A stretch of DNA of 64,000 bases from Sulfurimonas sp. (lineage in GTDB: Bacteria; Campylobacterota; Campylobacteria; Campylobacterales; Sulfurimonadaceae). Shown in pieces: positions 4,280 to 56,870 of the stretch (within the stretch, counting starts at the first letter, position 1; every line of letters begins with the position of its first letter). The stretch lies in NCBI GenBank assembly GCA_021648285.1, contig JAKITC010000001.1, forward strand, positions 62,001 through 126,000, in the 5' to 3' direction. The translations under genes were made by a program, and so were the position numbers. Below the pieces are notes generated by a model. That model was not told the DNA's origin. It was given only the letters and a program-made list of their open reading frames with translations, and made no database searches.

Positions 4280-4564
4280 ATGGCAGTAATTATTAATGAT
4301 ACATGTATTAACTGTGGTGCTTGTATTGATGAGTGTCCGGTAGAAGCAATTGTGGATGAAGATGATAATCCGCAAGATGAAGAAATTTATTATGTGTATG
4401 GTAATAAATGTGTAGAGTGTGTTGGTCACCATGATGAACCAGCATGTGCTACAGCATGTCCTACAGAAGGATGTATTACTTGGGATGCTATTGGTGAGAG
4501 TCCAGCGCATCGTGATGAAATTACAGACGAGCAACGTTCAAACAAAGAGCCTGTAGTAGACTAA
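4280..4564 (+). CDS. fdxA: 2[4Fe-4S] ferredoxin (FdxA/YfhL type)
   Basis: 94 residues with two cluster motifs. The first is Cys9-x2-Cys12-x2-Cys15-x3-Cys19 followed by Pro. The second is the expanded Cys44-x2-Cys47-x8-Cys56-x3-Cys60 typical of the YfhL/Helicobacter FdxA group. It is a soluble low-potential electron carrier; in Helicobacter this ferredoxin is linked to pyruvate oxidoreductase chemistry and nitroimidazole response (known for the family, not shown here). The AGGAG ribosome site lies at 4268-4272, and ndk follows. Confidence 0.9.
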   Translation: MAVIINDTCINCGACIDECPVEAIVDEDDNPQDEEIYYVYGNKCVECVGHHDEPACATACPTEGCITWDAIGESPAHRDEITDEQRSNKEPVVD

Positions 4565-8625: not shown

Positions 8626-8656
8626 GTACATGTAAAATAAAATATTCTACATGTAC
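8626..8656 (-). terminator. hairpin after the DEAD-box helicase gene
   Basis: GTACATGTA and TACATGTAC, nine bases each, flank a 13-base AT-rich loop directly past the helicase stop. Each arm is itself almost a palindrome (TACATGTA), so a cruciform or two small hairpins are also possible. The U-tract is weak. Confidence 0.4.
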
Positions 8657-8664
8657 GCAGAGAG

Positions 8665-10257
8665 TTAGTCTCTGCTTCTGTTACGGTTTCTGTCACCGCC
8701 ACCAGAACGGCTACCTTCGCTAGAAGAAGATTTCCCACGGTAACCACCGCCTCCACCAGAACGATTTCTATTGCCATTGCCTGAACGGTTTCTATCACGA
8801 CCTCCACCACCGCCTGAACGTGGTTTATTCCCACGGTAACCACCGCGTCCACCACTTCTGCTGTCATTTCTTTTACCGGCACGCTCTAAAATAGCTGCTA
8901 GTTTGTCAGCAGGAATACCAATAGTATTTGGACCTTTAACAGCTTGCCTATCTAAAATCATTGAAACTAGTTTAAACATAATAGTCTCTTCATCTATATC
9001 TTCTTTTAACATGTCAAGAATTTGATGTGCCTCGTCATAGATGTGTTGATCTTCTATATTTTTTACAATAGATTTTAAATTTAATGCTCTTAAATCATTT
9101 TTACTTGGAATAAATGCATGATTCATCGATGTTCCGACTTTAGTTTTTATTCTCTGAAGTTCTTTAAACTCTAGTGGAGTTAAAAGTGTGATAGCTTTAC
9201 CTTTAGTTCCAGCACGTCCAGTTCTACCGATACGGTGAACATAAGACTCTGAATCAAAAGGAATATGGTAGTTGAATACATGAGAAATATCATTTACATG
9301 TATACCACGAGCAGCAACATCGGTTGCAACTAAAACTTTAACACTGTTGCTTTTGAAACCTTTGATAACTGACTCACGTTGACGTTGCTCCATATCTCCA
9401 TGAAGACCATTTGCTAAGTAACCAGAGTTTGAAAGTACGTTTGAGAGTCTATCAACTTCACTTTTTGTTCTACAGAATACAATTGATTTTTTTGTAGTCT
9501 CAGAATCCATAAGACGAATAATTGCATCATCTCTTTCAGACTCTTCGATTACATAATACTCTTGCTCGATATCTGTATTTGTAGTTTCACCACCAGTGAT
9601 AGATATAAACTCTGGGTTATTTAAGATTCTCTCAGCAAGAAGCTTGATTGGTCTAGGCATAGTAGCTGAGAAAAGAAGTGTTTGACGGTTTGTTGGAAGA
9701 TATGAAAATATTTCATTGATATCATCCAAAAATCCCATATCAAGCATCTCATCAGCTTCATCTAGAACAACCACGCTTGGTTTGAAATCTTTTAACATAC
9801 CTCTTTTAAGAATGTCTAGAAGACGACCAGGAGTTGCAACAACCACTGCTGCACCTCTTTGAATAAGGTCAAGCTGTCTGCTATATGAACTACCACCATA
9901 AACTGTTACAGTTCTAGCGCCGATACCTCTTCCATATTTGAATAGCTCATCACTTACTTGAGTAGCAAGTTCACGTGTTGGAGTGATAACTAAAAGACCA
10001 ACACCATCTTTAGGGTTGATATTGTTTAGTGCAGGCAGACCAAAAGCAGCTGTTTTACCGGTACCAGTATGTGCTTGACCAACTATGTCGCGACCATCAA
10101 GTATAAATGGTATTGCCGCAGCTTGAATAGGGCTTGGAACTACAAAACCAGCTTCTTTTACAGCTCTTTGTATCTCACTGTTTAAACCTAAATCAGCAAA
10201 TGTGATTGTCGGTTCTTCATTAATTTGTTCCTCGTTTGTTTGTGCATTTTCTTGCAT
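8665..10257 (-). CDS. deaD: DEAD-box RNA helicase
   Basis: About 530 residues. Numbering from the upstream ATG: Walker A AHTGTGKT (63-70), PTRELA, TPGR, the DEAD box at 167-170 (VLDEADEMLDMG), SAT (LFSATMPRP), HGDMEQRQR, ATDVAARGIH and HRIGRTGRAG, so both RecA-like domains are complete. The last ~65 residues are Gly/Arg/Ser-rich (RGG-like), an RNA-binding tail. It probably unwinds rRNA or mRNA structure, especially in the cold. Of two adjacent ATGs, the second (10257) is five bases from AGGA, the better spacing. The 5' leader is over 70 bases and contains a CTGTC/GACAG hairpin. Confidence 0.93.
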   Translation of the reverse strand: MQENAQTNEEQINEEPTITFADLGLNSEIQRAVKEAGFVVPSPIQAAAIPFILDGRDIVGQAHTGTGKTAAFGLPALNNINPKDGVGLLVITPTRELATQVSDELFKYGRGIGARTVTVYGGSSYSRQLDLIQRGAAVVVATPGRLLDILKRGMLKDFKPSVVVLDEADEMLDMGFLDDINEIFSYLPTNRQTLLFSATMPRPIKLLAERILNNPEFISITGGETTNTDIEQEYYVIEESERDDAIIRLMDSETTKKSIVFCRTKSEVDRLSNVLSNSGYLANGLHGDMEQRQRESVIKGFKSNSVKVLVATDVAARGIHVNDISHVFNYHIPFDSESYVHRIGRTGRAGTKGKAITLLTPLEFKELQRIKTKVGTSMNHAFIPSKNDLRALNLKSIVKNIEDQHIYDEAHQILDMLKEDIDEETIMFKLVSMILDRQAVKGPNTIGIPADKLAAILERAGKRNDSRSGGRGGYRGNKPRSGGGGGRDRNRSGNGNRNRSGGGGGYRGKSSSSEGSRSGGGDRNRNRSRD

Positions 10258-10732: not shown

Positions 10733-10741
10733 GTGAATAAA

Positions 10742-11569
10742 ATGGAAAAAGAACTTGAAGAAGTAGGGCAGTTTTACAACATTGTCATAGAGTTTATAAC
10801 AAACTATAGTTTTCAAATTATAGGTGTAATTATTATTTTGGCTATCGGTGTAGTAGCCTCTAAATACATTCACAGATATGTATTAAAGCTACTTTTAAAG
10901 ACTACAATAGATGAGACTTTAGGTGGCTTTATTGCCAGTTTTGTAAGATTTTTAGTAGTTGCAATGATGGCTATTTTAGCGCTTGGGAAACTTGGTATTT
11001 CTATAGCTCCATTTATTGCCGCTCTTGGTGCTATTTCTCTTACTGCCGGTTTGGCTCTTCAAGGAAGTGTCTCAAACTTTGCAGCTGGTCTTGTCCTTAT
11101 AGCTACAAAGCCTTTCAAAATAGGCGATACTATTAGAGTTCACGATATTTATGGAGAAGTACAAGAGATAAAATTAGCGTATACCATTTTAATCAATGAA
11201 GACAAAGAACAGATAACCATACCTAATAAATATATGATAGGTGATGTTTTAGTAAACTCATATCTTTTTAGAATTGTTGAAGGCAGTGTCGGAATATCTT
11301 ATGATAGTAATGCAGATAAATCAATAAAGCTTGTAAAAGAAACTATATCTACATGTAAAGAAGTCTCAGATGAGAATGAGCCTATTGTTGGCATTGAAAA
11401 TTTTGGAGATAGTTCGATAAATATCGGTTATAGATACTGGGTACCTACAAATAGTTTTTTCAAAGCACAGTATGAAGTTAATCTAAAAATATTAAAAGCT
11501 CTTAATGAAGCAAAAATCGCAATACCTTTTCCACAAAGAGAGATTCGTATGCTAGGAGATGAAAAATAA
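10742..11569 (+). CDS. mscS: small-conductance mechanosensitive channel (MscS family)
   Basis: About 275 residues, the size of a minimal MscS. It has three membrane helices (about residues 20-45, 60-85 and 90-125). The third is the Gly/Ala-rich pore helix GALGAISLTAGLALQGS, then SNFAAGLVLIATKPFKIGDTI, the family signature of the beta domain, and a C-terminal alpha/beta domain. It opens under membrane tension to release solutes in osmotic downshock. GTG at 10733 is an alternative start, but AGGTG before ATG 10742 gives a better ribosome site. The stop overlaps the DoxX start by one base. Confidence 0.93.
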   Translation: MEKELEEVGQFYNIVIEFITNYSFQIIGVIIILAIGVVASKYIHRYVLKLLLKTTIDETLGGFIASFVRFLVVAMMAILALGKLGISIAPFIAALGAISLTAGLALQGSVSNFAAGLVLIATKPFKIGDTIRVHDIYGEVQEIKLAYTILINEDKEQITIPNKYMIGDVLVNSYLFRIVEGSVGISYDSNADKSIKLVKETISTCKEVSDENEPIVGIENFGDSSINIGYRYWVPTNSFFKAQYEVNLKILKALNEAKIAIPFPQREIRMLGDEK

Positions 11570-34464: not shown

Positions 34465-34993
34465 TTTTACTAGACAAAATATTTATCTTCTGGCAACCTC
34501 TGTTTTTTTGCTTATTTTTGTTTTAGTTTTCTCCTTTTCTGTTTTAATCCCCAAGGGTAAAGAGTATAGAGTTAAGAGGACGGAGCTCAGAAAAATGAAT
34601 CTTGAAACACGTCGGTTAAATGATTTTTCCTATGAAACATTAGAAATACTTCAAAAGCTTCAAGCTGATAATCGTAATATTATTACCGCATTTGATACTG
34701 AATTCTCTCCTGAGAGATTTGAGAAACAATATAAAGTTTTTTTCAACTCTTTAAAACTCTCTAAAAAAGCCAAAAGAGAAGATGAAGATGAGTTTAGTGT
34801 TTATGAAGTAAATACAACATCTGCGATAAGCTCACCAAAGAGTTTTTATAATTTTTTAGAGGCTGTTAATAAAAGTGATTGGATTGTAGGTGTTAATTTT
34901 CCAATAAAATTTAAAAGAGATGGTGAAATTATCAGTTCATCTTTTACAATGAAAACTTACGGCAATAAAAAAGATTCAAACAGCACTAAGTAA
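34454..34993 (+). CDS. PilO-like membrane protein (putative)
   Basis: About 179 residues from the preferred GTG start (34454), which is seven bases after GAGGAG; the ATG at 34436 has no such site. One membrane helix near the N-terminus, a coiled coil (YRVKRTELRKMNLETRRLND), then an alpha/beta periplasmic domain ending in Lys/Asn. With the previous gene it would form the PilN-PilO heterodimer that aligns a pilus or pseudopilus assembly. It runs convergently into tilS by 18 bases. Confidence 0.5.
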   Translation: MKINFTRQNIYLLATSVFLLIFVLVFSFSVLIPKGKEYRVKRTELRKMNLETRRLNDFSYETLEILQKLQADNRNIITAFDTEFSPERFEKQYKVFFNSLKLSKKAKREDEDEFSVYEVNTTSAISSPKSFYNFLEAVNKSDWIVGVNFPIKFKRDGEIISSSFTMKTYGNKKDSNSTK

Positions 34994-35977
34994 CTTTTCT
35001 ATTTTTAAAAAGGCCTTTTCGTTTTTATAAAGAAAGGGACGAAGTTTTGGTTCTATTTTTAGAACTCTGCACTTCTCTTTAAATTTATGAGGCATCTGTA
35101 ACTCCTCGGTTATAAATGGCGCTATAAAAATAAAATTAATACCTTGATTAATTACAAATTTTCTTCCTGCAACTACCGTACTATCTATTTTTAAAAGCTC
35201 TCTTTCATTTGAAGTCAGCATATACCCTTGCGACTTTAAATATTTATCAATCGCATAAATATTACTTCTTGAATTACTAGAGTTCTCAAAGTAAGCAAAA
35301 TCATCTATATTTTTTACTTTTATATCCCCAATTAAAATATCTCTATCTTCATCTATATATTTAAAACTTTTTTTAATGCCATCTAAGTGCTCTTTTAAAA
35401 GAGGGTTAGAGTGTTTGTGTCTAAAGCTATTTCTTTTTATGCTCTCATCTAAGTTACTCTCATCTTCAAAGTATTTAATAGTCTGTTTGTTTAAATACTT
35501 TAAAAGTTCACTTTTATCTACATGTAAGAGAGGGCGGATGAGTTTATAGTATTCTCGAGGTTCTATTGTTTTCATTCCGGCCAATTCAGCACAGCCGGCA
35601 CCTTTGCAAAACTGCATAAGCATCCATTCGAATCTGTCTCCTAAATGATGTGCAGTTATAAGGTTGTCATATTTGTGCTCTTTAACAAGCTCTTGGAAAA
35701 AGTTATATCTTATCTCTCTTGCACGTGATTCAAAGTTTTTAGATAGTTTTTTGGCATCTAAAATATGACATGTCAAACCATGTGTGTTAGCTAACTCTTT
35801 AGCGTAAACTACTTCATCTCTGCTTTGTTCTCTAAGTCCGTAGTTAACAGTTGCGATGTCAAAATTAATGTTGTGTTGAATTAGAAGAAAAAATAGAGCA
35901 GTAGAATCTACCCCGGCAGAAAAAGCTAAAAGATTTTTTTTATCCTTTAACTCCCAGAGCGTACTGTTTTCAAGCAT
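34976..35977 (-). CDS. tilS: tRNA(Ile)-lysidine synthetase
   Basis: 333 residues. It converts C34 of the CAU-anticodon isoleucine tRNA to lysidine so that it reads AUA. The PP-loop reads FSAGVDSTALFFLL (residues 19-32); the second Gly of SGGxDS is Ala. Also TAHHLGDRFEWMLMQFCKGAG and the basic C-terminal half. It overlaps rimO by eight bases and the PilO-like gene by 18. Confidence 0.94.
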   Translation of the reverse strand: MLENSTLWELKDKKNLLAFSAGVDSTALFFLLIQHNINFDIATVNYGLREQSRDEVVYAKELANTHGLTCHILDAKKLSKNFESRAREIRYNFFQELVKEHKYDNLITAHHLGDRFEWMLMQFCKGAGCAELAGMKTIEPREYYKLIRPLLHVDKSELLKYLNKQTIKYFEDESNLDESIKRNSFRHKHSNPLLKEHLDGIKKSFKYIDEDRDILIGDIKVKNIDDFAYFENSSNSRSNIYAIDKYLKSQGYMLTSNERELLKIDSTVVAGRKFVINQGINFIFIAPFITEELQMPHKFKEKCRVLKIEPKLRPFLYKNEKAFLKIEKLLSAV

Positions 35978-37350: not shown

Positions 37351-38499
37351 ATGAAAATATATGATGTGATTATCTTGGGAGCAGGGGCGAGCGGGCTAAT
37401 GTGTGCCTCTCATCTGGACAAAAAGTTTAGCGTAGCTGTTGTGGAAAAGAACTCTAAAGTTGCACAAAAACTAAAGATTTCCGGTGGTGGAAAGTGTAAC
37501 ATCACAAATGTACATGTAAGTGAGGATAATTATGATGGTGATAGTGATTTTATATCCTATGCTTTGAATGACTTTTCTAGAGATGATTTACTAGAGTATC
37601 TACATGTCAATGGTGTTGAACCTGTTATTCGTAAAAATCGTTACTATTTCTGCAAAGACTCTTCTGATGAGATTATAAATATTTTAAAAAAACAAACCCT
37701 ACATGTAGATATGATTTTAAATAGAGATATACTACATGTAGGTAAAAAAGATGATGTGTTTGAAGTACAAACATCAAGCGAAGTTTTAAAAACGAAGAAG
37801 CTTATTGTAGCAACAGGCGGTAAAAGTTTTGCTTCGTTGGGTGCCAGTGATATTGGTCTGAATATTGCAAAAAGCTTTGATATAAAAGTTAAAGAGTTCA
37901 CTCCGGCACTTGTAGGACTTACAGTTCAAAAAGATCAGTTCTGGATGAAAGAACTCAGCGGACTTAGCTGTTATGTAAATATAAAAGTAGAAGATAAGAT
38001 TTTAAAAGAGGAGATGCTATTTGCTCATAAAGGCATAAGCGGACCGGCAGTTTTATCCGCATCACTTTATTGGAAGAAGGGAAACATAGCAATTGATTTT
38101 TTACCAAACAATAATATTTCAGAACTTATAAATGGCAGTAAAAAATTGGTAAGTTCTGTTATCCCCCTGCCAAAAAGATTATCAAAGGCTATTTTAGAAG
38201 CTCTACATGTAGAAGATGTTGAGTGTAAAAAAATAGATGAAAAGATTAAAAAAGATTTGGTGAAAATTCATAATTATGAGTTTGCTCCAGCGGGTAATTT
38301 TGGTTTTAGCAAGGCTGAAGTTTGTCGTGGGGGTGTTTTAGGTACTGAGTTGAACCTTGCAACCTTAGAAGCGCTACATGTACAAAATTTATATTTTATA
38401 GGTGAAGTTGTAGATGTAACTGGTGAATTAGGTGGATATAATTTTCAGTGGGCATTTAGCAGTGGTGTGACATGTGCAAGGGCTATAAATAATAATTAA
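37351..38499 (+). CDS. HI0933/YhiN-family flavoprotein
   Basis: About 382 residues. FAD-binding VIILGAGASGLMCASHL at the true start (ATG 37351; an upstream in-frame ATG at 37273 lies inside the rimO promoter region). Then KLKISGGGKCNITNV, family signature KLIVATGGKSFASLGASDIGL, and the C-terminal VVDVTGELGGYNFQWAFSSG. The function of this family is unsettled. The DNA carries five copies of TACATGTA, mostly as CTA-CAT-GTA codons for Leu-His-Val. Confidence 0.88.
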   Translation: MKIYDVIILGAGASGLMCASHLDKKFSVAVVEKNSKVAQKLKISGGGKCNITNVHVSEDNYDGDSDFISYALNDFSRDDLLEYLHVNGVEPVIRKNRYYFCKDSSDEIINILKKQTLHVDMILNRDILHVGKKDDVFEVQTSSEVLKTKKLIVATGGKSFASLGASDIGLNIAKSFDIKVKEFTPALVGLTVQKDQFWMKELSGLSCYVNIKVEDKILKEEMLFAHKGISGPAVLSASLYWKKGNIAIDFLPNNNISELINGSKKLVSSVIPLPKRLSKAILEALHVEDVECKKIDEKIKKDLVKIHNYEFAPAGNFGFSKAEVCRGGVLGTELNLATLEALHVQNLYFIGEVVDVTGELGGYNFQWAFSSGVTCARAINNN

Positions 38500-38632
38500 T
38501 ATATTATATTTTAGAAGTGTTATCTGCTATATGAGGACATGCCAGTAAATGAATCATGTGAAAATATTCTAAAAGTTGATTAGTTTATGGTTGTTTAGTA
38601 TAATGTGTTTAAAGTACAAGCAAAAGGTTATT

Positions 38633-38890
38633 ATGATAACAATAGAAAAGTTAAAAAATACATTAATTCAAGGCTTAAATCTTGAAGATATCACTGCCGA
38701 TGAGATAGAAGATAATATGCAAATTTTTGGCGATGATGGCTTAGGTCTTGATTCAGTAGATGCAATAGAACTAACTTTAATTATAGAAAAAGAGTTTGGT
38801 GTAAAAATAACAAATCTAGCTAAGGCTGAGGAGATTTTTGCTTCTTGTGAATCCCTAACTACATATATAAATGATCAGTTAAACAATTGA
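38633..38890 (+). CDS. acyl carrier protein 1 of the aryl polyene cluster
   Basis: 85 residues. The phosphopantetheine Ser is in DDGLGLDSVDAIEL (about residues 36-49), preceded by acidic helix I and followed by TLIIEKEFGVKI. Start ATG 38633, six bases after AAAGG; an earlier in-frame ATG (38576) would add a hydrophobic extension foreign to ACPs. It is the first gene of the cluster and overlaps the ketosynthase start (TTGA). Carries the growing polyene chain. Confidence 0.92.
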   Translation: MITIEKLKNTLIQGLNLEDITADEIEDNMQIFGDDGLGLDSVDAIELTLIIEKEFGVKITNLAKAEEIFASCESLTTYINDQLNN

Positions 38891-39990
38891 GAAAAGCTTA
38901 TATCAATGCTACTTCTATTAGAAGTATATGTGGCAATACAAAGCAAACATTGGATGCTGTATTTAATAAAAAAAGTTCTTTAACAATTCTTAGTGATGTT
39001 GTTCCAGATAAAACTATATGTATTGGTAAATTTCCTGATGAATCTAGTTTTGAAGAGTTACTATTTGATAGTGTTGATGAAATACTAAATGAGTCTAATT
39101 TACAAGACTATTCAAATACTCTTTTGCTGGTTGGTTCGTCAGTTGGCGGAATGGCAACAACAGAAAAAATACTTTTTCGTGATGATAGCTATAAAAACAT
39201 AAATGTAGATTCACATACGATAAATGTAATAGCTTATACTCTAAACAAAAAATATAATTTCTTGGCAACTCGTTCATTTTCTACAGCATGTACTTCAAGC
39301 GCAAATGCATTAAAGGTAGCAAAAGAGCTTATAAATGTTGGTGCTTATGATAATGTTCTAGTCGTAGGAGCTGATGAAACATGTTCTACAACAATCTTTG
39401 GATTCAGTGCATTAGGGATATTATCCGATGAAGTTTGTAGACCATTTCAAAATGGAAGAAAAGGTATGAATGTTTCAGAAGGAATAGGCACTTTACTGTT
39501 ACAAAATTCATCTCAAGATGATTCAGTAGAATTAGTTGGAGTAGGTGCAAGCAGTGATGCATATCATATAGCAAACCCAGATCCAACAGCTACAGGGGCA
39601 AAGACATCGATTGGTAAAGCACTCGCTAATGCTTCTTTAAACCCGCAAGATATAGATTATATAAATGCGCATGGAACTGGCACAATGGCTAATGATACAA
39701 CAGAAGCAAAAGCTATATTAAATATTTTTGGTGATCAAGTACATGTCAGTTCTTCAAAGTCAAATATAGGGCACACTCTTGGTGCTGCTGGGGCTATTGA
39801 AGCTGTAATCTGTGTTCAGTCTCTAAAAAAACAATTACTACCCCCTCAGATTTACTGTGCTGATAATGAAAATTCTCTTAATTATGTTGATATTGCTAAG
39901 AATGCAAAAATAGGATATGTATTAAGTAATTCTTTTGCATTCGGTGGAAACAACACGTCTCTGATTTTTGGAGCATGTCTTGAAAATTAA
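38887..39990 (+). CDS. beta-ketoacyl-ACP synthase (KAS I/II-like) of the aryl polyene cluster
   Basis: 367 residues, TTG start overlapping the ACP stop. Catalytic Cys135 (FSTACTSSAN), His262 (NAHGTGTMAND) and His296 (SSKSNIGHTLGAAGA) are all present, as is the C-terminal NSFAFGGNNTSL. It would condense malonyl units in aryl polyene chain growth. It directly precedes a chain-length-factor-like gene, the heterodimer arrangement of type II systems (ApeO-ApeC in Gammaproteobacteria, from memory). Confidence 0.92.
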   Translation: MRKAYINATSIRSICGNTKQTLDAVFNKKSSLTILSDVVPDKTICIGKFPDESSFEELLFDSVDEILNESNLQDYSNTLLLVGSSVGGMATTEKILFRDDSYKNINVDSHTINVIAYTLNKKYNFLATRSFSTACTSSANALKVAKELINVGAYDNVLVVGADETCSTTIFGFSALGILSDEVCRPFQNGRKGMNVSEGIGTLLLQNSSQDDSVELVGVGASSDAYHIANPDPTATGAKTSIGKALANASLNPQDIDYINAHGTGTMANDTTEAKAILNIFGDQVHVSSSKSNIGHTLGAAGAIEAVICVQSLKKQLLPPQIYCADNENSLNYVDIAKNAKIGYVLSNSFAFGGNNTSLIFGACLEN

Positions 39991-40621
39991 TGTTGAAATT
40001 ACTAAAAAAGCATTTGTCCACAATAAATTGAAAATTGAAGATTTAAACGAAAAAGAACTTGTACAGAAAATGCTTATTAGACGTCGTCTTAGTAGAAGTT
40101 CAAGGATACTAATAAACTTAGCTCATAAGTGTGATTTTACGGCTGGTGTAATGGTTTATGGAAGTGCTTACGGAGAGTTGATTGATACTGTAAATATTTT
40201 AGAAGCAATTAAAAATAATGACATGGTTAGTCCAAGTGCTTTTCAAAATTCTGTTTATAATACTGCAGCTTCATATCACTCTATAGTTCACGGCAACACG
40301 TCTGAGATATTGACACTGTCATGTGGTGATGAAACATCCTACAATGTGATGCAACAAGCTGCATTGAGCCTTTTAAAAGAGGATGAGGTTTTTGTTTGTG
40401 TTGTAGAAGCTATGAATTTTGATGGAGTGGATAGTTTGAATAAATGTGCAAATGAATTAGAGTATGGTATATCTTTTGTACTCAAACAAAGTGAAAAAGA
40501 AGTTAATGTTATAGTTCAAAACAAAATTCAAAAAGGTGTTCCATCTTCACTTTCTTGGATGAAAAATTTATATGATTTGTGTGAGAACAATGATGGTTGC
40601 GTCGTAGAAGTAGAATTATGA
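39980..40621 (+). CDS. chain-length-factor-like ketosynthase homologue
   Basis: About 213 residues, half the length of a ketosynthase and without catalytic Cys/His/His. Pattern AGVMVYGSAYGELIDTVNILEAIKNNDMVSPSAFQNSVYNTAASYHS matches the beta-ketoacyl synthase N-terminal family used as chain-length factor in aryl polyene systems (ApeC-like). TTG 39980 has GGAG six bases upstream; TTG 39968 is the alternative. It should pair with the synthase encoded just before it and set chain length. Confidence 0.85.
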   Translation: MKINVEITKKAFVHNKLKIEDLNEKELVQKMLIRRRLSRSSRILINLAHKCDFTAGVMVYGSAYGELIDTVNILEAIKNNDMVSPSAFQNSVYNTAASYHSIVHGNTSEILTLSCGDETSYNVMQQAALSLLKEDEVFVCVVEAMNFDGVDSLNKCANELEYGISFVLKQSEKEVNVIVQNKIQKGVPSSLSWMKNLYDLCENNDGCVVEVEL

Positions 40622-40968
40622 AAGAATTAAACTTACCACATAAAGAACCGATAAAGTTTGCAAAATACATTGTATCAAAAGAAGACACTTCGGCAGTTGT
40701 AAAAGTGCAATTTGATGAAATACCGAGTTTACCTATGTTAGTTGAAGCAGCTGCTCAAAGTAGTGCAGCTTTTAGTAATGAAGAGAACAAAATGGGCTTT
40801 TTAGTAACATTAAAAAATATCAAGTTAGTAAATAAACCTTGCTCATTTGAATATAATATAAAAGTTACTCTTGAACATCAACTAGATAGTTTGACATATT
40901 TCAATTTTGAAGTGTACGATGAGCATACAGTAGTTGCCACTGGAATATTTATAATTTCTATCCAGTAA
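40618..40968 (+). CDS. 3-hydroxyacyl-ACP dehydratase, hot-dog fold (ApeP-like)
   Basis: 116 residues. N-terminus MKELNLPHKEPIKFAKYI gives the LPH-x-x-P motif with likely catalytic His8, and MLVEAAAQSSAAF is the hot-dog helix. It probably removes water after ketoreduction to make the conjugated double bonds. ATG overlaps the previous stop (ATGA). Last gene of the first four-gene unit. Confidence 0.82.
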   Translation: MKELNLPHKEPIKFAKYIVSKEDTSAVVKVQFDEIPSLPMLVEAAAQSSAAFSNEENKMGFLVTLKNIKLVNKPCSFEYNIKVTLEHQLDSLTYFNFEVYDEHTVVATGIFIISIQ

Positions 40969-40979
40969 TATTTATTAAG

Positions 40980-41002
40980 TTCTCTAGCTAATAGCTAAAG
41001 AA
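40980..41002. terminator. bidirectional hairpin
   Basis: TTCTCTAGCTA/TAGCTAAAGAA around a single central base pair, one mismatch, between the convergent dehydratase and lipoprotein genes. Confidence 0.45.
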
Positions 41003-41015
41003 TTTATTATCACTT

Positions 41016-41420
41016 CTACAGAAGAGTAAGCTGTGACTGGATAGCTTGATTTAAATTTGTAATCCAACCATTGTAGTTCTGATGTATAGTTTGCTTTTCT
41101 CGATCATACTTTAAGTTAGAACTTTCTTTATATGAGATAGTGTAAGTATTTGTATCATATTTTATCGTAACCACAGCCTTGTGTGTTCTTAGATGCAATG
41201 TAGCCTCAGCAACTCCTTCTTCTATCTTGTGTACATTCCAACCAAGGCCAACACCAGCTCTTAGAATCGCTTTAAATACATCATCATTAGATATATTTTT
41301 TTTTGTACTTAAAGTCACAACTGATTGTTCAGGAACATTTTGTATACTTGCTGTTCTACAACCTGCAAAACTTAATGATAATACTAAGGCTATAAGACCA
41401 AGTTTTAGGATTCTTTTCAT
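41016..41420 (-). CDS. putative lipoprotein within the aryl polyene cluster
   Basis: 134 residues. Start MKRILKLGLIALVLSLSFAGCR with lipobox SFAGC; an in-frame ATG 13 codons upstream (41459) is less likely. The mature part alternates strands and helices (GVAEATLHLRTHKAVVTIKYDTNTYTISYK), a small periplasmic or outer-membrane domain. No named family known to me. It is opposite to the biosynthetic genes but enclosed by them, so a role in pigment placement is only inferred. Confidence 0.65.
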   Translation of the reverse strand: MKRILKLGLIALVLSLSFAGCRTASIQNVPEQSVVTLSTKKNISNDDVFKAILRAGVGLGWNVHKIEEGVAEATLHLRTHKAVVTIKYDTNTYTISYKESSNLKYDREKQTIHQNYNGWITNLNQAIQSQLTLL

Positions 41421-41459
41421 TATAACAACTCCATTTAAAATTTTATAAAATGCTACCAT

Positions 41460-41621
41460 TAAGTAACTTTACATATTGTTAATGTATAATCATAGATAAT
41501 ATAGTATGTTGATTGTATTTATATAATCAATCTATAGCCGTATTCAATTTAAAAGCATTAAAACTAAAATTAATTAGGTATAACTCTTTTATCTTAACCT
41601 TGATAAAAATTAAATAATACT
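41460..41621. other. AT-rich gap, no gene seen
   Basis: 160 bases, very AT-rich, between the lipoprotein and methyltransferase genes (both on the minus strand). It presumably contains the lipoprotein promoter; I could not define it. Confidence 0.3.
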
Positions 41622-42698
41622 TTATAGGATATTGTTTGATTTTTTACAAATCATTAAAGTATGTCCGAACCCTAGACCATTTATCTCTTCTTCTACTTCT
41701 AGTCCAGCTTCGTGTACAAATTTTTCCATCTCACTTGCTCTGTACATTTTACTTGTACCATTTGCTAATGCAGTAAAATATGGTGATGTGTTAATAAGAC
41801 AGTATGAACCAATCTCATGACTTTGTTTGTCCCAAAATGGTTCAACTATATAAACTCTTCCATCTTCAGTTAAAGAGTCTCTGGAACGTATTAAAAGTTC
41901 AATTATATCTTTAGGGGGAAAGCAGTCTAAAAATTGACTCATCCACACCCCGTCATAGTCTTTTGGAAAAGGAATACTGTGGTCAAGTAAATCAATAGCA
42001 ATCCCTTTTACCTTTTGCTCAACATCGTTGGCCTTTGCATTATTCATAGCAATATCAATTTGTCCTTGATGATCTAGTATTGTTATTTTAGTCTCTGGAG
42101 ATGCTTTTGTAAGTGCAATTGACCATTTACCAGTATTTCCACCTGGTTCTAAAAGATTCTTTATGCCTTTTTTACTCATAATTTTAATAAGGTCTACAAA
42201 TGCTGCATCTGAATAAAAGTGATCAAAATTAAACCAACTATCTTTTGCTTCTTTTGGTAATTTTGTAAGTATTGGATAAATTGTATCTTCATCTTTTGAG
42301 AAAGTCTTATGAAGTCCAGTAGGTTTCCTAGTTTTAAGTGCTTCATCAAGGTAAAAAATCCCCTTGTAGTTTACGTCATGGTTGTAATCCATATTCACTC
42401 TTGTCATTTCGTCATTTTGTAAAAAGTAACCAATCTTGGTAATAGTGTATATGTCATCATTTAGCTTCAATGCGCCCATACTAAATCCAGATTCACATAG
42501 AATTTGTACTATATACATAGAAATATCTAATTTTTTTGATATATCTTCAAGACTTAGTCCATTTTTATTATTTTGGAGTAACTCAAATATTCCCCAATCA
42601 CGTAAAAGTCTTGCGCATTGGAATACAATAGGTGCAAATGCGATTTTTTGAGCTTCTAATAATGCATCAGCTGCATTCATTTTTGTAGTATCAAACAT
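41622..42698 (-). CDS. SAM-dependent O-methyltransferase (family 2-like)
   Basis: 358 residues. N-terminal winged-helix dimerisation domain (ARLLRDWGIFELLQNNKNGLSLEDISKKLDIS), then a Rossmann core with LLEPGGNTGKWSIALTK, DHQGQIDIA and YDGVWMSQFLDCF. It probably methylates the aryl head group, as the aryl polyene methyltransferase does elsewhere. The first Met at 42701 would be GTG; ATG 42698 overlaps the stop of the small lipoprotein gene by one base (TGATG), so coupled translation fixes this start. Confidence 0.85.
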   Translation of the reverse strand: MFDTTKMNAADALLEAQKIAFAPIVFQCARLLRDWGIFELLQNNKNGLSLEDISKKLDISMYIVQILCESGFSMGALKLNDDIYTITKIGYFLQNDEMTRVNMDYNHDVNYKGIFYLDEALKTRKPTGLHKTFSKDEDTIYPILTKLPKEAKDSWFNFDHFYSDAAFVDLIKIMSKKGIKNLLEPGGNTGKWSIALTKASPETKITILDHQGQIDIAMNNAKANDVEQKVKGIAIDLLDHSIPFPKDYDGVWMSQFLDCFPPKDIIELLIRSRDSLTEDGRVYIVEPFWDKQSHEIGSYCLINTSPYFTALANGTSKMYRASEMEKFVHEAGLEVEEEINGLGFGHTLMICKKSNNIL

Positions 42699-42862
42699 CA
42701 CCTGTCTTTGTACTCTTGTGTTTCTTTGGAAAAATCATCTTTAACGCTATCCCATCTTTTTTCAGTTCCATCTTTAATATTATGGAAATTAGTTTTAATT
42801 TCTTTTTTTGTGCATCCAGTGCTGAATAGTAAAATAGCTACAATAATAAATACATACTTCAT
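42698..42862 (-). CDS. 54-residue small lipoprotein
   Basis: A short gene: MKYVFIIVAILLFSTGCTKK then a charged helix ending TQEYKDR. Lipobox FSTGC. Ribosome site AGGAAG precedes ATG 42862 closely. Its TGA overlaps the methyltransferase ATG, proving they are one transcript if translated. The short charged tail resembles small lipoproteins such as entericidins in layout only. Divergent from the hot-dog gene at 42940; the 77-base gap between must hold promoters for both directions. Confidence 0.75.
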   Translation of the reverse strand: MKYVFIIVAILLFSTGCTKKEIKTNFHNIKDGTEKRWDSVKDDFSKETQEYKDR

Positions 42863-42939
42863 TCACTTCCTTTGACTCTATTTAAAGCAATACTATACTA
42901 GAATATATATGTAAAATACTTTAGGCAAGAAAGAATAGA

Positions 42940-43233
42940 ATGATTTTGAATAACTTATATTTTTTAAAGTATAAAGATAATGAAAAAGCAGTAATTGACT
43001 TATGTGATAAGCAGCATCCTGTTTTTAAAGCACATTTTCCATCACAGCCTATTTTACCAGGGTTTGTTCATTTTGAAATAGTAGCAGATATTTTTAATAT
43101 TGATATACATACAATTAAAAAAGCCAAGTTTACTAAAGTAATTACGCCTTCGCAGACTCTTACTTACAAAAAAAATGACAATAAATTCAAAGTATTCTGT
43201 CAAGATGAAGAAGTTGCGAGTTTTAGTTTATGA
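42940..43233 (+). CDS. FabZ-like hot-dog dehydratase (ApeI-like)
   Basis: 97 residues. Motif QHPVFKAHFPSQPILPGFVHFEI carries the H-x-x-x-x-x-HF-P-x-x-PG signature of FabA/FabZ-type dehydratases, with His27 and His33. It is shorter than FabZ (about 145), lacking most of the C-terminus. It probably acts with the dehydratase at 40618, or as its inactive partner, in polyene formation. It heads the long operon to 54741; its stop overlaps the glycosyltransferase start. Confidence 0.82.
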   Translation: MILNNLYFLKYKDNEKAVIDLCDKQHPVFKAHFPSQPILPGFVHFEIVADIFNIDIHTIKKAKFTKVITPSQTLTYKKNDNKFKVFCQDEEVASFSL

Positions 43234-43916
43234 GCTTTTGCATAATTATTCCTGTTTACAACTCTCCATATATCAGAGAAGTTGTTGAAGATGTCTTAAG
43301 TTATGGGTATAAGATTATAGTTATAGATGATGGCTCTGAAAAAGCCGTTGATGTTGATGGCTTAGATGTAGAATTAGTTACTCATACTTCTAATATGGGC
43401 AAAGGTGAAGCAATTTTAAGTGGAGCAAAAAAAGCTAAAGAGCTTGGTTTTGACTCTTTTATCAGTATGGATGCTGACAAACAACATCTAAGTTCACAGA
43501 TAACCAAGCTCATTGATGCCTATGAAAACGAGACTATTATTATAGGCAATCGTAATTTTGAACAAGAAAATATTCCCAATAGCTCAAAGTTTGGTAGAAA
43601 ATTTAGCAATTTCTGGGTAATGCTTGAAACTCTAAAACCTCTCGGCGACACACAGAGTGGTTTTAGAATGTACCCAGTCTCTATTTTAGAGCTTCCCCTC
43701 GTCAACCGACGCTTTGATCTTGAAGTTGAAATTTTAGTACATCACTCATATAGAGGTGGAAATATTAAAGATGTAGAAGTTGAGTGCTATTATCCACCCC
43801 ACGATGAGAGAGTCTCTCACTTTGATAAACTGTGGGACAATGTTCATATAACATTACTTCACATAAAACTGCTTATGCAGAGATATCTTTTGTTTAGAGG
43901 GTGGTTGTGGAAATAA
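43230..43916 (+). CDS. family 2 glycosyltransferase of the aryl polyene cluster
   Basis: 228 residues. GT-A core with IIIPVYNSPYI, IVIDDGSEK, NMGKGEAILSGAKKAKELG and the metal-binding D-x-D in SMDAD; then TQSGFRMYPV and RFDLEVEILV. It belongs to the DPM1/dolichyl-phosphate-mannose-synthase-like branch that sits next to the LpxL-like acyltransferase in aryl polyene clusters, proposed to attach a sugar or head group to the lipid carrier. Starts by ATGA overlap. Confidence 0.88.
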   Translation: MSFCIIIPVYNSPYIREVVEDVLSYGYKIIVIDDGSEKAVDVDGLDVELVTHTSNMGKGEAILSGAKKAKELGFDSFISMDADKQHLSSQITKLIDAYENETIIIGNRNFEQENIPNSSKFGRKFSNFWVMLETLKPLGDTQSGFRMYPVSILELPLVNRRFDLEVEILVHHSYRGGNIKDVEVECYYPPHDERVSHFDKLWDNVHITLLHIKLLMQRYLLFRGWLWK

Positions 43917-44755
43917 AACAGCGAGGAAATGCTTATGGCTATAAACTACTTCTTCTGACATATAATATTTTTGGCTATAAGCTAGTAGTATTTATACTGA
44001 ATTTTGTTGCTCTTTACTACCTTTTCTTTACACCATCCGTTAAAAAATCTATGCAGAGCTATTATCAAAATCAAGGTTTAAAATTAACAAATAGAAGCTA
44101 TTTCAATCATATAAAAATGTTTGCTATATCCATTTTTGATAGATTTGTTTCATGTATAAAACCTGAGGATTTGACTTTTTGTGTGCACAACAGTGATGTC
44201 ATGGAACTTCTCAATAAAAATGGTGGGTTAATACTACTTTCACATGTAGGAAGCTGGGCAAGTGCAGCACACTGTTTGAGGAACGAGTTGCCACCAATGA
44301 GTATAGTTATGCGTGAGAATACTCAAAAAAATATCCAAAAAGTGGAAAAAAACAATCAAAGAGATAATGAGCACAGTGTGAAAATAATAGACCTAAACCA
44401 AGGTTCAATCTCCGCTAATGTTCAAATAGCAAATGCTCTCATAGAAAAAGAGTTAGTTGCTTTGATGGCAGACAGAGCGGCCGATGAATATAAAACAATT
44501 GAGGTGGAATTTTTAGGAAAAAAAGTACTTATAAATAAAAAACCTTTTGAGATTGCTATGAGAGTTAAAAAACCTCTTGTTGCTATATTTGTGACAAATC
44601 ATTCACTACAAAAATATGACATTACGCTAGAGCTGATTGAAGAGAGTTCACTTGAACAAATGACTCAGGATTATGCAGATATATTACAAAAAACAGTAAA
44701 AAGATATCCAAATCAATGGTATAATTTTTATGATTTTTTTAAAGGCAAGACTTGA
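43907..44755 (+). CDS. LpxL/HtrB-like acyltransferase of the aryl polyene cluster
   Basis: About 282 residues, one N-terminal membrane helix. LPLAT core LILLSHVGSWASAAHCLRNE, MREN, VALMADRAAD and the C-terminal YPNQWYNFYDFF. The usual H-x4-D/E catalytic motif reads H-V-G-S-W-A, i.e. the acid is Ala. GTG 43907, six bases after AGAGG, is preferred over GTG 43901. It is expected to join the polyene acid to a glycolipid in the inner membrane. Confidence 0.85.
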   Translation: MEIKQRGNAYGYKLLLLTYNIFGYKLVVFILNFVALYYLFFTPSVKKSMQSYYQNQGLKLTNRSYFNHIKMFAISIFDRFVSCIKPEDLTFCVHNSDVMELLNKNGGLILLSHVGSWASAAHCLRNELPPMSIVMRENTQKNIQKVEKNNQRDNEHSVKIIDLNQGSISANVQIANALIEKELVALMADRAADEYKTIEVEFLGKKVLINKKPFEIAMRVKKPLVAIFVTNHSLQKYDITLELIEESSLEQMTQDYADILQKTVKRYPNQWYNFYDFFKGKT

Positions 44756-46266: not shown

Positions 46267-46955
46267 AAAAGGTTTTAATAACTGGATCAACTGGTGCAAT
46301 TGGCGAAGCTTGTGCAAGATACTTCCATGATAACGACTACTTTGTATATCTTCACTATCGTAGTCAAGAGGCAAAAGCGAAAGAGTTAAATGCTCAACTT
46401 TGCAACTCTCAAACAATACAGTTTGACATCACCAAAAAAGATGAAGTTTTTAGTGCCTTAGAGGAGTTAGAACTTGATGTTTTGGTTAATAATGCAGGTA
46501 TAACTAAAGATAATCTCTTCTTTTGGATGAGTGATGATGAATGGAGTGATGTTATAAACACTTCTGTTAACGGAACCTTCTTTGTAACAAAAGCAGTTTT
46601 GAAAAATATGATTGCAAATAAAAAAGGCTCAATCATAAATGTTGCATCTGTTTCAGGTCTTGTCGGGAATGCTGGACAGACCAACTACTCTGCTGCTAAA
46701 GGTGCAATGATAGCCTTTACAAAAGCACTCTCGACAGAAGTAGCAAGATATAAAATCAGAGTAAACGCAGTAGCTCCAGGTTTAGTTGAGTCTAAGATGA
46801 CAAAAGAGTTAGATCTAAAAGAGATGAAAAAGGCAATTCCTTTAAAAAGAATTGGTAAGCCTGATGATGTAGCCGAGTGCGTCTTTTTTTTAGGTGATAA
46901 AGCAAGTTATGTAACCGGTGAGACTCTTAACATCAGTGGTGGTATGGTTCGATGA
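46263..46955 (+). CDS. 3-oxoacyl-ACP reductase (FabG-like)
   Basis: 230 residues, an SDR. NADPH site GSTGAIGEACA (6-16), NNAGITKDNLF, catalytic Ser in VASVSGLVG and Tyr-x3-Lys in NYSAAKGA; ends YVTGETLNISGGMVR. It reduces the ketone after each condensation in polyene synthesis (ApeQ-like). It is the cluster-specific copy; a housekeeping fabG is presumably elsewhere. Both ends overlap neighbours by four bases. Confidence 0.92.
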   Translation: MKKVLITGSTGAIGEACARYFHDNDYFVYLHYRSQEAKAKELNAQLCNSQTIQFDITKKDEVFSALEELELDVLVNNAGITKDNLFFWMSDDEWSDVINTSVNGTFFVTKAVLKNMIANKKGSIINVASVSGLVGNAGQTNYSAAKGAMIAFTKALSTEVARYKIRVNAVAPGLVESKMTKELDLKEMKKAIPLKRIGKPDDVAECVFFLGDKASYVTGETLNISGGMVR

Positions 46956-48283
46956 ATATCGCCATAGTTGGAGGAGGTCTAAGTGGACTTCTATGTGCTT
47001 TTCTATTAGAGAAAAAAGGATATTCACCGACTATCTATGAGAGACTTCCAAAAGTTGGTGGAGTAATCGACTCATTTAAAAGAAAAGGAATTATGTTTGA
47101 TGTCGGTTTTCACTACTCTGGCTCACTTGCCCCAAAGCAGTTTTTATATGAAGAGTTTAAAAAATATAATCTTTTAGAGAAGTTTGAACTATACTCATAT
47201 GATGATGATTTTGACACTCTTTACTTTGATGGAGAAGAGTTTGGTATCCCAAATAGCTCTTTAGAGTTTAAACAAAAACTTAAAGCCTATTTTGAAGATG
47301 AAAAAGAGGCTTTAGAAGTTTTTTTTAACAAATGTTTTGAAGCTTCAAAGATAACTCTTAAACTAAAAAATGACTATGCGAACATTGATTCTCGCTCTCT
47401 GAGAAGTGTTATGCAAGATATTAAAAATCCACTTTTGAGAAAAATACTTCTACACTTTACAATCTTTTATGCAGAAGTTCAGTATGAGGAAGCTTCGTTT
47501 GATATTTATGCAAAAATCATGATTAATATGCTTGATGGAACAAGAAAGATAAGAGGTAATGGGAGAGCGATTGTAGATGTACTAAAGAGTGAATTACACA
47601 GTACAACTATAAAAACAAGAGATGAAATATCTGAGATATTATATGATGAAAACGGAGCTAAAGCACTTACATGTAAATATGGTGTCAAAGAGTACGATGC
47701 AATCATCTCGACTTTGCATCCAAGGACAATGGTAAATCTTTTAGATTTAGAGAACAAAAAACTAAAAAGATATGCCAAACATGTAAATGAACTTGAAGAG
47801 TCACCAACATTTTTTTCGATATTTTGTCTAGTAGACGCTGATATTACTTCAAATCTTTACTTCTACAGTGATGACTGCATCTCTGTTTTACCATCATCAA
47901 AAGTCGATGGAAAGAGTGTTGTTACTGTTATAGCAAGAAGCAGTTACGAGAAGTATGAAAAACTTGAAAAAGAAGAGTACAAAAGATTAAAGCAAGAAGA
48001 GTGCGAAGAACATATATCTGCTATGAAAAAGTTATATGATTTTGGAAATATAGAAATCATGGACTGCTCGACTCCACGTACAAAACAGTACTACTCAAAC
48101 GGGTATAAAGGCAGTGCTTATGGTGTTTTATGTTCTGCTAAACAAAAAAGTCTATCTATGGTTATGCCTAAAACAAGAATAGATAACTTATATTTGGCAG
48201 GAGAGAGCGCTTTAGCGCCAGGTCTTCTGGGGTGTTACTTAGGTGCACAAAAAGTTATGAATTATTTTGAGGAGTTAAGATGA
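46952..48283 (+). CDS. FAD-dependent oxidoreductase (phytoene desaturase/amine oxidase family)
   Basis: 443 residues. N-terminal dinucleotide fold AIVGGGLSGLLCAFLLEKKGY (4-24), then YERLPKVGGVIDSFKRKG and a C-terminal FAD motif NLYLAGESALAPGLLGCYLGAQKVM. The overall pattern is that of CrtI-like desaturases and isomerases. I cannot assign a step: desaturation, ring hydroxylation or double-bond isomerisation are all possible. It overlaps both neighbours by four bases, so it is an integral part of the operon. Confidence 0.85.
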   Translation: MNIAIVGGGLSGLLCAFLLEKKGYSPTIYERLPKVGGVIDSFKRKGIMFDVGFHYSGSLAPKQFLYEEFKKYNLLEKFELYSYDDDFDTLYFDGEEFGIPNSSLEFKQKLKAYFEDEKEALEVFFNKCFEASKITLKLKNDYANIDSRSLRSVMQDIKNPLLRKILLHFTIFYAEVQYEEASFDIYAKIMINMLDGTRKIRGNGRAIVDVLKSELHSTTIKTRDEISEILYDENGAKALTCKYGVKEYDAIISTLHPRTMVNLLDLENKKLKRYAKHVNELEESPTFFSIFCLVDADITSNLYFYSDDCISVLPSSKVDGKSVVTVIARSSYEKYEKLEKEEYKRLKQEECEEHISAMKKLYDFGNIEIMDCSTPRTKQYYSNGYKGSAYGVLCSAKQKSLSMVMPKTRIDNLYLAGESALAPGLLGCYLGAQKVMNYFEELR

Positions 48284-49506: not shown

Positions 49507-49511
49507 TATTA

Positions 49512-55036: not shown

Positions 55037-56620
55037 ATGAACTTAACTGAGTTAGAAGAAATAGGTCTAAAAAATGTTGGTAAGGTTTTTCATAATCTTA
55101 GTTATGATGAATTAATTCAGCACGAAATTGATAATGATGAATGTGCAGTTACAAAATTTGGTGCAACAGCAGTTGACACCGGTATCTTCACTGGTCGTAG
55201 CCCAAAAGACAAATATTTTGTAGATCGTGACCCATCAAACAAATATATTGCTTGGGGTGATGTTAACAAAAAAGTTTCTGCTGATATCTTTACAGAACTT
55301 TTAGCTGTTGCTCAAGAACAGCTATCAAACAGAGACATTTATGTTACAGATGTATTTTGTGGTTCTAGTGCTGCTTCAAAAAGATCGGTTCGTTTTGTAT
55401 CTGAGATAGCTTGGCAGTCTCATTTTGTTAAAAACATGTTTATTCGTCCTACTCCATCGGAGTTGGAAGTTTTCAAATCTGATTTCACAGTACTGAATGC
55501 TTGTAAAGCTGTAGATGACAAATGGCAAGAGCATGGTCTTAACTCTGAAGTGTTTGTACTTTTTGATGTAGAAAATAACATGGCTATTATCGGTGGTACT
55601 TGGTACGGTGGGGAGATGAAAAAAGGGATTTTTTCAATGATGAACTACTGGCTGCCACTAGAGGGTAAACTTCCTATGCACTGTTCTGCAAATGTTGGTG
55701 AAAAAGGGGATACCGCACTTTTCTTCGGACTAAGCGGAACTGGTAAGACTACTCTTTCAACTGATCCTCATCGTGCTTTAATCGGTGATGATGAACATGG
55801 TTGGGATAACTACGGGGTATTTAACTTTGAGGGTGGATGTTACGCAAAAGTTATAGACATTGATGCTAAAAGCGAACCTGAAATTTACAATGCGATTAGA
55901 ACAAATGCACTCCTTGAAAATGTTGTAATGTATGGAGAGGGTGAAGTAGATTATGAAGATAATTCAAAGACTGAAAACACTCGTGTTTCTTATCCGATAG
56001 AGCATATCAAGAATCATGCAGCTAGTTTAAGTGCAGGTCATCCTGAAAATATCATCTTTTTGACTGCCGATGCTTTCGGTGTTCTTCCACCGGTTTCAAA
56101 GCTTACTAAAGAGCAGGCAATGTACTACTTTTTAAGTGGATACACTGCAAAAATTGCTGGAACCGAGCGTGGGATTACTGAACCTGTTGCAACATTCAGT
56201 GCATGTTTTGGTGAGGCTTTCTTACCACTTCATCCAACAGTTTATGCAAAACTTCTTGGTGAAAAAATTGATAAGCATGGTGTTAATGTTTATCTTGTAA
56301 ACACTGGATGGACAGGTGGAGCTTATGGTGTTGGTCACAGAATGAGTATAAAAGATACTCGTGCTTGTATTAATGCTATTTTGGATGGGAGTATTAAAGA
56401 AAGTGAGTTTGATACTACTAAAACATTTAGATTACATGTACCCAAGACTCTTGGTAGTATTAATCCAGAGATTTTAAACCCTCGTAATGCTTGGGAAGAT
56501 AAAGATAAATTTGATAAAACAAGAGATACTCTAGCTGAGATGTTTATTAAAAACTATAAAAAATACCAAGATGCAGATCATCCTGATTTTTCTCCATATG
56601 GTCCAAAAGTAGGATCTTAA
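55037..56620 (+). CDS. pckA: phosphoenolpyruvate carboxykinase (ATP)
   Basis: 527 residues, full length. It converts oxaloacetate and ATP to phosphoenolpyruvate and CO2, linking the reverse TCA cycle to gluconeogenesis through gap/pgk/tpiA. Kinase-1a loop [14 protein letters not shown], kinase-2 [19 protein letters not shown] (substrate site) and [15 protein letters not shown] are all present. AAAGG lies nine bases before ATG. Confidence 0.97.
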
Positions 56621-56732: not shown

Positions 56733-56870
56733 ACATTACAGCAAATCTAAAACCTTTAATATTACAGAATCTCCTTAAATTACAACAAAAATATTTTAAA
56801 ATTAAATCTACATGTAGATAGTTACTTTTCTTTTTATAAAGAAGCTATTTCCTACGCTTTGTAAAGAAAC

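Follow-up and report, generated by a model that had tools for sequence, protein, structure and literature searches.

A palindrome of about 12 bp with the core ACATGT is enriched in certain Sulfurimonas and Sulfurospirillum genomes, occurs in lineage-specific dialects, is under selection at the DNA level and is statistically linked to an adenine methyltransferase; it probably marks own versus foreign DNA in these bacteria. The earlier note, which had drawn attention to the octamer TACATGTA, offered a DNA uptake signal, a methylation site or a protein-binding site as its function, and of these the observations speak most for a signal tied to a methyltransferase. By analogy with known systems, our leading reading is that the ACATGT palindrome may be a self-DNA signal coupled to methylation and acting most likely during uptake, although we rate this reading at somewhat less than an even chance.

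The window, that is, the whole stretch of 64,000 nucleotides analysed, comes from a Sulfurimonas genome (G000) of 1,968,053 bases in 55 contigs that is about 90% complete. It contains 14 copies of TACATGTA, compared with a mean of 1.52 and a maximum of 5 in dinucleotide shuffles, none of 100 of which reached 14, and among all 8-mers of the window TACATGTA ranks first, whether the Markov model is of order 1, 2 or 3. Twelve sites had been listed previously, against two or three expected from composition; all twelve were found where they had been placed, two more (4300..4307 and 9295..9302) were added, and the enrichment proved stronger than had been estimated. No strand is assigned to any of the sites. 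Two of them are non-coding and form a pair 21 bp apart (8627..8634 and 8648..8655); four lie within the open reading frames 10733-11569 (11350..11357), 34976-35977 (35519..35526), 46952-48283 (47668..47675) and 55037-56620 (56433..56440); a CTACATGTAG site falls outside the listed frames (56809..56816), and the remaining five are in the flavoprotein gene described below. Two other features of this DNA were observed: the 12-mer GGGTATACTTCC, a separate short repeat, is present in 6 copies in the G000 sample plus window (about 0.02 expected), and positions 38576-54741 of the window hold genes for acyl carrier protein and ketoacyl synthases, clustered with one for an aromatic amino acid lyase (PF00221, 44752-46266); the cluster resembles an aryl-polyene or related pigment pathway.

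In the whole G000 genome, TACATGTA occurs 313 times in 1.97 Mb and its reversed word, used as the control, 51 times, which answers the call for a genome-wide count against controls. In a 390-kb sample that includes the window, with both strands counted and an order-3 Markov expectation, there are 138 copies of TACATGTA against 14.1 expected and 540 of ACATGT against 137, far from the Markov-level frequency that would speak against the claim. With a z of 34, ACATGT is the most over-represented 6-mer, and the next palindrome reaches only 4.5. The leading 8-mers are CTACATGT/ACATGTAG, TACATGTA and TGACATGT/ACATGTCA; TACATGTA ranks first among the 8-mer palindromes and ACATGT first among the 6-mer palindromes. 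A flank-pair table for the G000 sample shows that the flanks of ACATGT favour TCT and TTG and that the two sides are roughly independent. Since ACATGT leads the 6-mers and its flanks have preferences, reaching TCTACATGTAGA and TTGACATGTCAA, the natural unit is a palindrome of about 12 bp around ACATGT and not the octamer.

The gene at 37351..38499 (+ strand) encodes an HI0933-like FAD-binding protein of the TIGR00275 family and carries five TACATGTA sites and seven ACATGT cores. Among its relatives, of which 80 loci out of 468 were kept, the nearest with a name belong to Sulfurimonas. When it is read from the ATG at 37351, all five sites fall at codon offset 1, with Val-His-Val at the TACATGTA site 37511..37518 and Leu-His-Val at the CTACATGTAG sites 37700..37707, 37733..37740 and 38204..38211 and the CTACATGTAC site 38375..38382. 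Five sites in 1149 bp have a Poisson P of about 1.5e-6, or about 0.003 when corrected for roughly 2000 genes; the cluster of mostly Leu-His-Val sites pointed out in the earlier note thus exceeds chance. It is real, but one of several in G000. Another G000 gene (L013:10189-11223) has 8 ACATGT cores in 1035 bp (P 9e-7), a higher core density than that of the flavoprotein gene.

Comparison of 29 orthologues of the flavoprotein gene shows how such sites arise. The octamer is found five times in G000, G017 and G032 and six times in G006, and four positions (37511, 37733, 38204 and 38375) are common to all four genomes; the site at 37733 is also present in G033, G034 and G011, that at 38204 also in G063, and that at 37700 is confined, within the 14 genomes shown, to G000. 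Among the other 25 orthologues, G033 and G011 have two octamers each and G063 and G034 one each, all four genomes being rich in the motif (as defined below); the 21 of 29 orthologues without the octamer include, besides those of the poor relatives, those of the rich genome G004 and of G060 and G062, for which no genomic count is available. At the shared positions, His in the rich genomes corresponds to Glu, Asp, Trp, Gln, Arg or another residue in relatives lacking the site, so the sites were gained by amino-acid change. At alignment column 382, a site is present in the G000 group and in the G033/G034/G011 group, and Glu or Trp codons occupy this column in the other seven genomes shown; the two groups reached this site separately.

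The codons around the sites point in the same direction. In G000, CTA makes up 22 of 25 CTN codons before CAT-GTN, compared with 16 of 127 before His without Val next, and Tyr before ATG-T is encoded by TAC in 16 of 26 cases, compared with 16 of 101 otherwise. The CTA effect is absent in genomes of the TTTAC dialect, as it should be if Leu is encoded there by TTA. Samples of eight rich genomes contain 150 Leu-His-Val tripeptides where 40.1 would be expected (3.7-fold), and 32 of the reversed tripeptide Val-His-Leu; in samples of six poor genomes, Leu-His-Val showed no enrichment (14 against 16.1 expected). The suggestion that selection acts on DNA rather than on protein is therefore strongly supported by the codon skew before His-Val, the Leu-His-Val excess and the gain of sites through residue changes. 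Such a DNA signal, which rewrites protein sequence into Leu-His-Val at many sites, matters for the reading of protein evolution in these genomes. An artefact of composition or codon usage, or a chance clustering, might be thought of for an AT-rich genome whose flavoprotein-gene sites mostly encode one tripeptide. Chance, composition and codon usage are ruled out by the shuffles, the Markov models, the reversed-word control, the synonymous skew and the Leu-His-Val counts, and 29 of 37 Sulfurimonas genomes stay below three times the control, so that we regard this explanation as having practically no chance of being correct.

The motif is patchy in Sulfurimonas and near-universal in Sulfurospirillaceae. 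In the set of 37 Sulfurimonas genomes, a genome was called rich when its count was at least three times that of the reversed word of TACATGTA; eight fall in this class (G000, 313; G004, 320; G006, 690; G011, 694; G017, 194; G032, 682; G033, 472; G034, 441), and among the 29 others G001 (8 versus 31) and several more are below the control. In a survey of 298 Campylobacterales genomes, where rich meant at least 90 copies and three times the control, judged by eye, the rich genomes comprised 26 of the 28 Sulfurospirillaceae, 6 of the 29 Sulfurimonadaceae and none of the 241 other Campylobacterales surveyed, whose maximum was 49 copies. The highest copy number, 1727, is in Sulfurospirillaceae. All lineages have the ACATGT core in common, and the flanks vary among them as dialects (CTTTACATGTAAAG, TCTACATGTAGA, TTGACATGTCAA): CTTTACATGTAAAG-like sites are used in the Sulfurospirillum genome G055 and in G011, TCTACATGTAGA in G032, a mixture of both in G006, and also TTGACATGT in G000 and G004. 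In G000, partial sites contribute to the excess; in G055, it is almost entirely accounted for by the full 10-mer. A resident Sulfurospirillum plasmid (L149-L150 / L179) carries site flanks that differ from the dialect of the chromosome. In a sample of the poor genome G031 (L129-L132), a different palindrome, GCATATGC, is over-represented (18 versus 2.6) and is perhaps another weak iterated palindrome. A full-text search of open-licence papers gave, among the matches listed, no earlier report of the motif in Sulfurimonas or Sulfurospirillum, and none of an iterated uptake sequence in this phylum in the open-licence literature searched.

With respect to genes, the sites behave differently in different genomes; the coding fractions given here derive from greedy open reading frame calls, are approximate and differ between scripts. 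About 90% of the cores in G000 are coding, as expected from gene density, and the ratio of non-coding to coding density is 0.9-1.9 in most Sulfurimonas samples and 3.7 in G032. Non-coding DNA of three Sulfurospirillum samples holds the octamer at 4.0 to 9.6 times its density in coding DNA, in gaps of any orientation. Among 50 TTACATGTAA sites in 100 kb of G055, 16 are coding, 15 lie in tandem, 8 in divergent and 8 in convergent gaps, and 3 at the ends of stretches; convergent gaps number only 10 there, and some gaps of 19-33 bp are occupied almost wholly by the site. Because convergent gaps are used and short gaps are filled by the site, the motif looks like a signal pushed into permissive DNA and not like a promoter element, and a promoter operator is ruled out by this lack of promoter preference (in G000 some 90% of the cores lie in genes, and in G055 gaps of all three orientations are used).

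It is worth noting that ten pairs of sites 21-23 bp apart, a window picked after the data had been seen, occur in the samples against about 1.4 expected by summation; 7 of the 10 are non-coding, and several could form inverted repeats. Spacing evenness is weak in general, the coefficient of variation being lower than for random placement in G104 (P 0.013) and in G055 (P 0.055); spacing is not more even than random in G210 or G011, and the sites are clustered in G032. Pairs two helical turns apart, together with a dimer-like palindrome whose half-sites are partly independent, would suit binding by an abundant protein, nucleoid-associated or other. The missing promoter preference and the frequent use of convergent gaps argue against a transcription factor, and the sole candidate examined, an S24/XRE regulator, is ruled out as the determinant because all 55 genomes searched, whether rich or poor, contain its family; we thus consider a DNA-binding protein improbable as the basis of the motif. 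On the Sulfurospirillum diekertiae plasmid pSDCE1 (L179), TTTACATGTAAG and CTTACATGTAAAG, at 20495 and 39645, lie directly upstream of two LexA-like S24 regulator genes that closely resemble each other, and one of these genes is divergent from a DNA polymerase IV gene; the two sites are possibly true operators that share the motif.

A candidate enzyme is a D12-class adenine methyltransferase (PF02086) of 331 residues encoded at G000:C6:2708-3700, whose start, MNYIGSK, we take to resemble that of M.NlaIII (target CATG). No named specificity for it was found in NCBIfam or PDB, and on this likeness its target is probably CATG. Homologues with at least 45% identity were sought in a panel of 80 genomes, of which 78 had counts and G060 and G062, with no TACATGTA count, were left out; G040, G056 and G058 had been put in since a D12 gene of this size was already known there, G203 was added as an outside genome, and G299, with a partial match only, was counted as lacking the enzyme. 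Of the 39 rich genomes, 28 have a homologue, as do 7 of the 39 poor ones (Fisher 3e-6; the 78 genomes are mutually related, so that P values overstate independence), and in 28 of 39 versus 4 of 35 when G040, G056, G058 and G203 are omitted. The tie is tight within a single genus of Sulfurospirillaceae (g20), where 11 genomes with the resident enzyme (45-53% identity) have 1223-1727 sites and six without it have 109, 342, 657, 671, 841 and 1201, two of these six having a different, 60%-identical form. Expressed as density, this is 484-576 versus 42-500 sites per Mb (Mann-Whitney P 0.001, for related genomes). In a MiaB tree, the g20 genomes without the resident enzyme fall in at least four places, several of the forks being weakly supported.

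The D12 gene is orphan-like and sits at conserved loci in most rich genomes. In the eight g20 neighbourhoods read, with gene identities taken from homology between loci, it adjoins conserved genes and no restriction endonuclease was recognised beside it. In rich Sulfurimonadaceae, 8 of 8 homologues are at the tsaD locus: the gene lies between dxr and tsaD in G000, G004, G006, G063, G141 and G219, and its adjacency to tsaD in G033 and G197 was deduced from coordinates. None of the three homologues in poor Sulfurimonadaceae (G031, G074, G089) is at this locus, neither tsaD nor dxr being found within 1.5 kb of them. The dxr-tsaD interval was seen to be an exchange hotspot in the six genomes that have the gene between dxr and tsaD, with the D12 gene constant and the partner gene variable (part of a histidine kinase, AAA/DUF4143, an Eco57I-type methylase and others). 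In G000, a 1229-residue fused methylase/specificity protein (PF02384, PF01420; L006:3967-7656, on G000:C6) separates the D12 gene from tsaD; with its N6_Mtase, Eco57I-type and type I specificity (Methylase_S) stretches, it resembles a restriction enzyme of a fused type IIG or MADS-like kind. Plasmid pSDCE1 (NZ_CP059996.1), whose counterpart is contig 2 of G055, also bears a D12 gene, at the same coordinates in both, and this gene itself holds four TACATGTA sites.

The association is incomplete in both directions, seven poor genomes having a D12 homologue and 11 of 39 rich genomes lacking one, including the single-contig G011, G032 and G164 as well as G130 and G221. Searches found no PF02086 in G011 and G032, no PF01555 in G011 and no PF00145 in G011, G032 and G164. 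The rich genomes without the enzyme may reflect recent loss, another methylase, or an enzyme that is helpful rather than required, and the complete ones among them (G011, G032 and G164) are the main weakness of our preferred explanation. As a trace of erosion after loss of the enzyme, G117 shows only a small excess of one-mismatch sites, 5.0 versus 0.5 per 100 kb. Other candidates were set aside: N6_N4 (PF01555) and C5 (PF00145) methylases showed no association by eye; CATG outside ACATGT is at 0.51-0.94 of expectation in all sampled genomes irrespective of the enzyme, and its depletion therefore does not serve as a sign of D12 specificity; and a restriction-avoided site is ruled out because ACATGT is enriched, not depleted. 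A separate observation concerns ACGT, which is absent from 100 kb of G012 (L119-L123) and at 0.07 of expectation in G021 (L155-L158), suggesting a strong restriction system with ACGT as its target.

Based on the results presented above, a methylation-associated palindrome of the HIP type, serving replication, mismatch repair, recombination or chromosome upkeep instead of uptake, roles put forward for HIP1 of cyanobacteria, has to be weighed, and this reading ranks close behind the methylation-coupled uptake signal, although we hold it to be doubtful. It would account for a palindrome with very high over-representation, an association with an orphan methyltransferase, the near-constant 484-576 sites per Mb in methyltransferase-bearing Sulfurospirillum and the presence of sites on a plasmid too, and the same constellation is described for cyanobacteria in the excerpts of Elhai 2015 (PMC4390886). 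On the other hand, flanked dialects of 12-14 bp need a reader beyond a CATG methylase, the complete rich genomes without the enzyme speak against a strict requirement, and the palindrome is AT-rich.

According to the methylation-coupled uptake signal that we favour, the resident, mostly orphan D12 methyltransferase would methylate the CATG at the centre of the palindrome, with CATG, ACATGT and TTTACATGTAAA as candidate motifs for m6A in Sulfurospirillum, of which S. multivorans strain N and Sulfurospirillum sp. JPD-1 have reportedly been read on the PacBio RSII (PMC7755780). A putative dimeric reader would bind the flanked palindrome (12-14 bp, in lineage dialects), most likely where DNA is chosen in natural transformation, as with CtsM-methylated RAATTY. 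DNA bearing the sites would be preferentially taken up and recombined, sites would accumulate by drive wherever protein constraint permits, their density would steady at about one per 2 kb, and they would erode once the methyltransferase is lost. We infer the CATG target, the methylation of the sites, the reader and the uptake function. This reading is chosen because a flanked palindrome with a constant core, an accumulation that changes proteins and fills gaps, and the tie to a methyltransferase occur together, and uptake is preferred among the possible steps because of the precedent in the same order, CtsM of Campylobacter jejuni. To our knowledge, no process other than uptake bias makes sites accumulate by the recombination of single fragments.

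An unlikely alternative in our judgement is a classical uptake sequence whose reader would be a pilus component and beside which the methyltransferase would only be hitch-hiking. The dialects around a fixed core, the non-synonymous gains of sites, the intergenic preference, the inverted pairs seen now and then in non-coding DNA at a distance of 21-23 bp and the rich genomes without D12 agree with it, and the tight within-genus tie of copy number to the methyltransferase does not. The resident Sulfurospirillum plasmid also bears the octamer (14 in 40 kb), which speaks against this alternative and against an uptake reading in general, such presence on a plasmid being unlike known uptake sequences; moreover, we know of no uptake sequence that is palindromic. 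The local argument advanced for uptake, that xerH and a PilMNO-like trio lie upstream of the flavoprotein gene, has no weight, as the sites are genome-wide; the recombinase was confirmed (PF00589), and the three PilMNO-like proteins gave no Pfam family match at E 0.001. ComEC was matched in 55 of the 60 genomes, both rich and poor ones, with no match in the incomplete genomes G000, G033 and G034; it does not separate rich from poor and is ruled out as the determinant.

A bolder reading is that environmental Campylobacterota have a palindromic self-DNA uptake signal that is coupled to methylation and diversifies into dialects. It would be the first signal of the uptake type to combine two strategies, the iterated motif of Neisseria and Haemophilus and the methylation of Campylobacter, and would also explain how HIP-type palindromes arise; the odds are clearly against it. 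Presence, dialect and copy number differ among close relatives alongside the candidate enzyme, which amounts to a naturally replicated experiment, and the question of why genomes accumulate iterated palindromes such as HIP1 becomes approachable in culturable Sulfurospirillum.

Among known enzymes, those of the NlaIII type are D12 adenine methyltransferases (PF02086) that seem to resemble the present one in the MNYIGSK start; unlike them, it mostly occupies fixed loci in rich genomes, with no adjacent endonuclease recognised in the Sulfurospirillum loci read. HIP1 and the alternate HIPs of cyanobacteria are, in the portions of PMC4390886 available, iterated palindromes with lineage variants and a link to an orphan methyltransferase, for which these portions give no known function, at about 500-2500 per Mb. 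The present motif is likewise an over-represented iterated palindrome with lineage variants and an orphan DNA methyltransferase link, and ACATGT is a short palindrome among the top over-represented words. However, it belongs to Campylobacterota, is AT-rich where HIPs are GC-rich, extends over 12-14 bp with dialect flanks, and reaches about 130-576 per Mb in rich genomes (313 in 1.97 Mb in G000, up to 576 per Mb in Sulfurospirillum); the linked methyltransferase is found in 28 of 39 rich genomes, other methylase families having been partly searched, and is missing from complete ones.

C. jejuni takes in only DNA methylated by CtsM at RAATTY, as stated in excerpts of PMC10046745 and PMC8468864. 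The two systems have in common the order, a palindromic motif, an adenine methyltransferase and, as proposed for the present motif, the distinction of self from non-self DNA; the CtsM motif is a short 6-mer, whereas the motif described here is a long iterated palindrome. In the DUS and USS of Neisseriaceae and Pasteurellaceae, as far as the extracts of PMC3630211 and PMC1852404 go, hundreds to thousands of copies, dialects, an invariant core, a non-coding preference and some inverted pairs are found as they are here; the DUS dialects have a common CTG core, and dialects around a constant core are a hallmark of uptake in Neisseriaceae (PMC3630211, in extract). The ACATGT motif, too, has many genomic copies and lineage dialects around a fixed core, but it is palindromic and is also on a plasmid. 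Within the open-licence literature searched, it is best filed as an apparently new, putative palindromic self-DNA motif in the class of iterated motifs.
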